DNA of 64,000 nt from Acidobacteriota bacterium (lineage in GTDB: Bacteria > Acidobacteriota > Blastocatellia > Pyrinomonadales > Pyrinomonadaceae). This document shows positions 40,783 through 42,115 of this stretch, one piece after another (the first letter of the stretch is position 1; each line of letters opens with the position of its first letter). The stretch is from assembly GCA_003697135.1 (NCBI GenBank), contig RFGC01000035.1, positions 186,001 through 250,000 on the forward strand, given 5' to 3'. Both the position numbers and the translations under genes were made by a program. The notes under the pieces are model-generated. The model was not told the origin of the DNA and did no database searches. It saw only the letters and a list, made by a program, of their open reading frames with translations.

Positions 40783-40810
40783 TTGACAAATCTCCGGTTG
40801 ATGTTGTAAT
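40783..40810 (+). promoter_or_regulatory. Sigma-70-type promoter of the pilMNOPQ operon
   Basis: A perfect TTGACA at 40783-40788 is followed after 16 bases by TGTAAT at 40805-40810, five of six matches to TATAAT. The predicted start of transcription is near 40816-40818, about 245 bases before the pilM ATG. This is the only strong promoter between the hydrolase gene and pilM. Confidence 0.72.
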
Positions 40811-41062
40811 TTATTTCTGCAGTCGTTAAGAACGATTGCATAAGTCGCCTTGAATTGCAAAATTATCTGCTAGCAAGAGAGAAGAACCATCAATGCTTAG
40901 CTCGTCGAACAGTCAGAAAAAGCGAAATGGGTGTCTCAGTTCTATCCTGCGTTCCACTCAAGAACCCCTTTCTGAACTCTTGCTGAAAAGATTCAAGGCG
41001 GCGAACCAGCCCCGAAAAGAATCTGAGATACCCATTTCGTTACCTGAATTTAAGGAGAGAAT
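40811..41062 (+). ncRNA. Structured leader of the pil operon (possible cis-regulatory RNA)
   Basis: There is no gene in these ~250 bases. CAGTCGTT/AACGATTG (40820-40838) can form a hairpin at the expected 5' end. Bases 40923-40939 pair with 41023-41039 over 17 positions, all Watson-Crick except one G-U, closing an 83-nt interior that contains small possible stems. The 3' strand of this helix ends 14 bases before AAGGAG (near 41052-41057), the pilM ribosome site, so folding could affect translation. The sequence lacks the conserved blocks of c-di-GMP-I (GEMM) riboswitches. It could be a new riboswitch, a protein-binding leader or, less likely, a MITE. Confidence 0.5.
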
Positions 41063-42115
41063 ATGCTGATAGGTAAAAAAAGAACTGCTGCTGGATTAGA
41101 CATTGGATCAAGCTCAGTCAAGTTGGTTGAGCTAGAAGGGAAGATAGGCAATCTAGGTTTGGTAAATTTAGGATACGAGAACCTACCTGACACAGCAATA
41201 GTTGAAGGTCAGATAATGGAGTTAAACACAGTAGCTGAAGCTATTCAAAACGTGTTTCAAGCAAACCAAGTAACAACAAATCAGGTCATAACAGGTGTAA
41301 GTGGCTATTCAGTCATAGTAAAGACAATAATTCTGCCACCAACAACCCCTGAAGAGTTAGAAGAATCAATAGTTTGGCAAGCCGAAGAAAATTTAGGCTT
41401 CAGATCATCAGATGTCAATTTCGATTATTACGTGACTGAATCAACACAAGAATACACAAAGGTTCTAGTCGCAGCTTGCAAAAAAGAAAGAATAGACCTT
41501 CTCAAAAGAACTCTCCAATTTGCTGGAAAGCAACCTTCGATTATTGATGTTGATACTTTCGCATTACAAAACTGTTATGAGATAAACTATCAGCCTTCTG
41601 CATATGATGTTGTGGCACTTTTGAATGTAGGAGCTTCAACAACAAACGTTAACATTGTAAGAGGCATAAACTCTCTTTTCATAAGAGATATAACGATGGG
41701 TGGGAATCAATTCACCGATGCTCTGCAGAAGGGATTAGGAATTGGCTTCCAGCAAGCAGAGGCGATTAAGAGAGGCATGAAAGAAGCGGCAAAAGGATTT
41801 GATGAGCAAACCATATCTAATCTGCTCGAAGCCCCGATGGAATACTTGTCGCTTGAAATCCAAAGAACATTTGACTTTTTCAAAGCTACTGAGGAAGGAA
41901 GCGACGTCAAAGTCGATAAAATCTTGATTTCTGGAGGCGGGTCTAAACTGACAGGATTCCCTGAGTATCTTTCCTCTGTTATGGGAATACCCGTTGAAGT
42001 TCTAGACCCTTTCCGCCAGATAAGAGTTGATACCAGAAAATTCGATCCTGATTACCTAAGTGAAGTCATGCCCGAAATGGCTTTAGCTGTTGGATTAGCT
42101 TTGAGAGGCCTTTGA
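41063..42115 (+). CDS. pilM: Type IV pilus assembly protein PilM
   Basis: This 350-residue actin-like (FtsA-fold) cytoplasmic protein anchors the pilus alignment complex to PilN. Family marks are GKKRTAAGLDIGSSSVKLVEL at the N-terminus, LPPTTPEELEESIVWQAEENL, DVVALLNVGASTTNVNIV, and the ATP-site motif ISGGGSKLTGFPEYLSSVMGIPVEVLDPF. AAGGAG stands six bases before the ATG. It is the first gene of a compact five-gene pil operon in the canonical order, with the promoter and leader upstream. Confidence 0.97.
   Translation: MLIGKKRTAAGLDIGSSSVKLVELEGKIGNLGLVNLGYENLPDTAIVEGQIMELNTVAEAIQNVFQANQVTTNQVITGVSGYSVIVKTIILPPTTPEELEESIVWQAEENLGFRSSDVNFDYYVTESTQEYTKVLVAACKKERIDLLKRTLQFAGKQPSIIDVDTFALQNCYEINYQPSAYDVVALLNVGASTTNVNIVRGINSLFIRDITMGGNQFTDALQKGLGIGFQQAEAIKRGMKEAAKGFDEQTISNLLEAPMEYLSLEIQRTFDFFKATEEGSDVKVDKILISGGGSKLTGFPEYLSSVMGIPVEVLDPFRQIRVDTRKFDPDYLSEVMPEMALAVGLALRGL

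Follow-up and report, generated by a model that had tools for sequence, protein, structure and literature searches.

The locus lies in a 64,000-nucleotide stretch of DNA (the window) from an Acidobacteriota bacterium of the family Pyrinomonadaceae, in which pilM, the first gene of a pilM-N-O-(P)-Q operon, is preceded by a promoter and a 252-nt leader. Pfam matches identify PilN, PilO and a secretin downstream of pilM; the gene that separates the last two had no Pfam match, and only its position suggests the name pilP. The features of the promoter, leader and first gene are as follows:

40783..40810, + strand: promoter, with the -35 element TTGACA at 40783-40788, a 16-nt spacer and the -10 element TGTAAT at 40805-40810 (sequence read directly)
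40818..40840, + strand: P1, the 5' hairpin, pairing 40818-40827 with 40831-40840 around the loop AAG (fold and arm-swap test)
40844..40855, + strand: PK1, the 5' pseudoknot strand GTCGCCTTGAAT, forming 12 bp with 40991-41002
40915..41046, + strand: P4 domain, the end-to-end match of the covariance models (R2, 22 bits, E 0.0009)
40923..40939, + strand: 5' arm of P4, CGAAATGGGTGTCTCAG (sequence read directly, fold)
40940..40990, + strand: P4 loop, the conserved core region, degenerate in this genus
40991..41002, + strand: PK2, the 3' pseudoknot strand ATTCAAGGCGGC, forming 12 bp with 40844-40855
41023..41039, + strand: 3' arm of P4, CTGAGATACCCATTTCG (sequence read directly, fold)
41052..41057, + strand: Shine-Dalgarno sequence (SD) of pilM, AAGGAG (sequence read directly)
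41063..42115, + strand: pilM (Pfam PilM_2, 3.3e-61)

A first-pass annotation of this DNA had proposed a promoter followed by about 250 untranslated bases. The promoter is present (TTGACA-16-TGTAAT) and is conserved in the family, with 50 leaders keeping the form TGTTGACA...tGTAa.TTt. A strict promoter scan overlooked it in the window because the scan accepts only A as the second base of the -10 element. The untranslated status of the leader also looks right on comparison with the sister species, despite a 58-aa reading frame that is open at 40893-41069 and overlaps pilM. This frame was rejected as an explanation of the leader, as the lengths of indels relative to the sister species are not divisible by three.

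Within the leader, a 17-bp helix with one G-U pair, enclosing 83 nt, had been described, and the description is exact: CGAAATGGGTGTCTCAG (40923-40939) pairs with CTGAGATACCCATTTCG (41023-41039). Chance falls far short of explaining pairing of this extent. With G-U pairs allowed, the leader (252 nt) contains an unbroken helix of up to 19 bp, whereas the longest helices of 200 shuffled leaders averaged 9.5 bp and never exceeded 14 bp, and none of 200 shuffles folded as low as the leader itself (RNAfold energy -76.6 kcal/mol, z -4.8). The reported distance of 14 nt from the helix end to the pilM ribosome site is off by no more than two bases (41039 versus an SD at 41052-41057). The helix is therefore real as described, but taking it alone as the element did not stand, as it forms only one part (P4) of a larger RNA. 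Similarly, the single G-U pair had been offered as a sign that pairing is conserved, which is a weak argument; conservation of pairing was instead shown by related genomes. For example, the 3' arm of P4 differs from that of the sister species by three substitutions within a shared 15-bp part, and pairing is kept in all of them.

A search for the pilM protein covered 119 genomes of the family; about 70 leaders upstream of its matches were read, and 50 of them have one common architecture. In 5' to 3' order, this comprises the promoter, the P1 hairpin, the motif CGCCACC, P2 (an outer stem), P3 (a hairpin) and the long stem P4; between the two arms of P4 lies a conserved loop with GGUGGCA at its end, and the return arm is followed by a hairpin (P5, present in most relatives) or a short spacer, and then by the SD. 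The folded leader RNA is about 230 bases long and, in the carriers read, immediately precedes pilM, with its 3' end close to the SD. In relatives, the core of the P4 loop reads CAGUUGRCCURUC..GUCCYGUC..YGUCAAUC, and the pseudoknot strands are GCCACC (upstream) and GGUGGC (loop end); across carriers, the first strand lies 59-67 nt from TTGACA and the two strands are 137-169 nt apart. Because PK1 is outside P4 and PK2 is inside its loop, P4 and the PK1:PK2 pairing together constitute a pseudoknot. The core of this pairing in the window, GTCGCC:GGCGGC, is a compensatory variant that is read three bases further left than in the other leaders, and the end pair is U-A in the window genome and A-U in the sister species. 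Five leaders (L044, L047, L049, L050 and L051) keep P1 and the promoter and have lost the P4 pairing and one pseudoknot pair; we regard their version of the RNA as decaying or altered.

Misaligned 3' arms of P4 left RNAalifold with almost no structure to predict from plain MAFFT alignments of the full set of leaders. As plain alignment fails on these variable arms, we used a covariance model together with an alignment-free arm-swap test, in which the 5' arm of each species is paired in turn with the 3' arm of that species and with 3' arms from the others. Among 50 relatives, own pairings were more stable than swapped ones for P4 (-27.0 vs -18.2 kcal/mol, 0/20000 permutations) and for P1 (-10.9 vs -6.0 kcal/mol, 0/20000). 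The same was true of P2 (-10.1 vs -8.0, 0/10000) and the pseudoknot (-13.2 vs -12.25, 0/20000), and the P3 and P5 regions folded better than shuffles (z -8.4 and -7.4, respectively). When 43 leaders were aligned by fitting to the covariance model, 16 of the 17 P4 pairs had changes on both sides, with 90 two-sided cells versus 29.4 in shuffles (0/500) and a covariation score of 0.362 versus 0.177 (0/500). An alignment obtained in this way leans towards structure. A plain MAFFT alignment of 25 sequences gave 38 two-sided cells versus 15.1 (0/500), and shifting the P4 partner by 1-3 columns in the MAFFT alignment reduced the covariation score as well as the proportion of cells that pair. All of these counts refer to sequences, not to independent events. 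The six-pair core of the pseudoknot is fully paired in 41 of 50 relatives, and compensatory changes (C-G to U-A and A-U to G-C) occur in several lineages. Compensatory changes in conserved helices, one criterion for a structured leader, were thereby met, and covariation among related pilM leaders, judged by these tests, gave strong support for P4, P1, P2 and the pseudoknot. As far as comparison of sequences can show, the helices and the pseudoknot are conserved by base pairing.

The window was searched with one covariance model built without this genus (R1) and another rebuilt to include the sister species (R2). R1 recovered held-out leaders of other genera (e.g., L010 at E 3e-16 and L013 at E 2e-14), did not match GEMM-type or outgroup leaders, and detected the sister species at E 0.003 (8 kb searched). 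In the 64-kb window, the leader locus was ranked first by R1 but weakly (12.5 bits, E 0.26), and was the top match of R2 (22 bits, E 0.0009). Judged from these scores, its position, pseudoknot and promoter, and its 72% identity to the leader of the sister species, the window leader is a divergent member of the RNA family with a degenerate loop.

The element was found only at pilM in the genomes searched. A pattern search of 162 genomes of the class returned 37 matches in the family, one per genome, and none with the reversed pattern; in every genome where pilM had been located, the match lay ahead of that gene, and one extra match in another family (G049) looks like chance. The covariance model matched 17 of 396 genomes of the phylum, all of them Pyrinomonadaceae and once each. 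A second criterion for a structured leader, one consistent downstream gene (pilM) behind a promoter, was also met. The proposed Rfam check yielded no match: Rfam 15 gave nothing at gathering score for this leader or for those of other carriers, and only chance matches around the leader at E up to 5. We expect Rfam to contain most motifs of a 2017 paper on 224 candidate RNAs. The first-pass annotation had also held that the leader is not of the GEMM c-di-GMP-I type, in agreement with which RF01051 matched neither the window at gathering, nor the surroundings of the leader at E up to 5, nor the carrier leaders, whereas sister genera scored 38-53 bits.

In those sister genera, an RF01051 (c-di-GMP-I, GEMM) riboswitch occupies the same position at pilM, and two other families of the class also have members with a c-di-GMP-I riboswitch at pilM. 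Within this family, the general remark about frequent c-di-GMP riboswitches at pilus operons holds true. All 30 carriers in a pilM tree of 57 rows form one clade (support 100/99). Sequence comparison thus shows a leader RNA that arose once, at a site that is occupied by a c-di-GMP-I riboswitch in related genera. Upstream of GEMM leaders and of a third type of pilM leader (described below), there is likewise a TTGACA promoter of this type, with GTTAAAC...AAAAT...TTGACA-type promoters preceding all three. Because same-type promoters precede the three leader types and the carriers are one clade, it appears that the leader RNA was exchanged while pilM and its promoter stayed; the direction of exchange, from GEMM to the new RNA, is an inference from outgroups that have GEMM. 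A structured, non-GEMM leader RNA in front of pilM, as originally suggested, is supported by covariation and by the lack of an Rfam match, and its cis-acting regulatory role is inferred.

The leader is very likely a functional cis-acting RNA, and probably controls pili as an RNA element not described before. We lean slightly towards a ligand-sensing riboswitch, with ligand binding inferred in the absence of biochemistry; a cyclic dinucleotide as the ligand is a tentative and rather doubtful suggestion, for which there are no binding data. Under the proposed mechanism, the pilM operon would be transcribed from its own promoter into an mRNA starting with a structured cis-acting leader outside Rfam. 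P4 would present the conserved loop, the 3' part of which would pair with a strand upstream of P4 to give a pseudoknotted core flanked by P1, P2, P3 and, in most relatives, P5. The leader is inferred to sense a small ligand, with c-di-GMP or another nucleotide signal as leading candidates, and may change pilM expression after transcription start, via translation or mRNA stability, not termination. Intrinsic termination was rejected as the switching step, as no terminator-like site was found in the leader. Blocking the pseudoknot strands left the predicted accessibility of the SD unchanged (0.44 vs 0.45). Pairing of PK1 with the SD is possible in the window genome (40849-40857 with 41048-41056) and frequent in only 6 of 50 leaders, and alternation of PK1 between PK2 and the SD was rejected as not conserved. 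Hence, sequestration of the SD by a pseudoknot strand is not supported, and no switching platform has been demonstrated. Most riboswitch classes occur at several genes, not one, and the restriction of this element to pilM therefore counts against the riboswitch reading. The degenerate loop of this genus, the weak R1 score of the window leader and the loss of P4 in the five leaders named above also weigh against the overall explanation. Loss of c-di-GMP signalling from the window genome was rejected given seven GGDEF domains and one weak PilZ match, and a c-di-GMP signal therefore remains possible. As an overall explanation, a cis-acting leader outside Rfam that does the job of GEMM at pilM by other means is reasonably probable. 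More speculative, and possible at best, is a new cyclic-dinucleotide riboswitch class that displaced c-di-GMP-I once in the ancestor of the clade, keeping promoter, gene and signal.

The main rival, and a real one, is a protein-binding leader, with a regulatory or pilus protein acting on the P4 loop to repress or protect the pilM mRNA. Ribosomal-protein and other autoregulatory leaders are lineage-restricted, structured 5' leaders of single genes. The new leader is likewise lineage-restricted and found at a single gene with one copy per genome, as is typical of autoregulatory leaders, but it precedes a pilus operon and no binding protein is known for it. The CYRUC motifs of the loop (1.3 per core vs 0.21 shuffled) and the failure to find a switching platform add to the case for a bound protein; it is weakened by the absence of an identified candidate protein and by the presence of a ligand-sensing riboswitch at the same place in sister genera, and we consider it unlikely. 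Covarying helices in which much of the sequence can vary, without a demonstrated switch, could also belong to a passive structure that senses nothing and serves merely to stabilise the mRNA or to leave the ribosome site accessible. However, a pseudoknot and a loop conserved across genera exceed the needs of a protective hairpin, making this explanation improbable. An independent small RNA, processed or terminated upstream of pilM, would account for the promoter and compact fold, yet is very unlikely for an element without a terminator-like site that adjoins pilM and, in the carriers read, ends near its SD. A MITE or a small coding gene, as the 17-bp inverted repeat and the 58-aa frame overlapping pilM might suggest, is already contradicted: the repeat is single-copy in its own genome, its arms covary across genera, and indels are not multiples of three. 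Neither outcome that had been named in advance as a refutation (recurrence of the repeat elsewhere in the genome, or relatives without compensatory changes) was encountered, with many compensatory changes present.

Considered as a riboswitch, the new leader can be compared with two known classes. The c-di-GMP-II riboswitch is a pseudoknotted leader RNA that senses c-di-GMP; the new leader is also pseudoknotted, but no Rfam model matches it at a useful score. With GEMM-I (RF01051), it shares a structured leader of the pilM operon, the same position and, in sister genera, a similar promoter. It differs in matching neither RF01051 nor other Rfam models, and in having a long stem that closes a loop of ~80-100 nt plus a pseudoknot, as opposed to the 87-position three-stem junction of GEMM-I. 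Literature searches yielded nothing relevant on pilM with riboswitches or c-di-GMP, nor on structured RNAs of Acidobacteria (no mention of Acidobacteria in PMC8632094), and the only pilM riboswitch that we found described is that of Geobacter metallireducens, which is of the GEMM-I type, senses cGAMP and acts by termination (PMC9262584). The new leader, in contrast, has no visible terminator. As a pseudoknotted, strongly covarying leader outside Rfam, the RNA may represent a new riboswitch class, and the known c-di-GMP-I riboswitch at the same gene in sister genera means that its ligand can be tested from a short list of nucleotides. Should the two RNAs prove to share a ligand, the pilM leaders would provide a clear natural example of RNA sensor replacement at a fixed locus.

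The third type of pilM leader was observed in genera g3, g5 and part of g10 (L139-L141, L059-L061, L064-L066 and L068). These leaders have the same kind of promoter, are neither GEMM nor the new RNA, and had no Rfam match even at E 0.5; that of g10 contains the hairpin GGCAGTGAGGATGCTGCC. A small arginine-rich open frame seems to be present in the last 100 nt before pilM in GEMM-type and third-type leaders (L054-L073), and was not seen in new-RNA leaders. Upstream of the promoter, a conserved GTTnAAC half-site is located ~20 nt from TTGACA, facing TGTTGACA around the -35 element (L003-L053 and L122-L141); the GTTnAAC part was not seen in the promoter region of the window itself. From its sequence, the pair formed by GTTnAAC and TGTTGACA before all three leader types is a possible operator. 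CYRUC repeats in the P4 loop of L003-L053 number 1.3 per sequence versus 0.21 in shuffles and, in the absence of binding data, are regarded as possible protein-binding sites.
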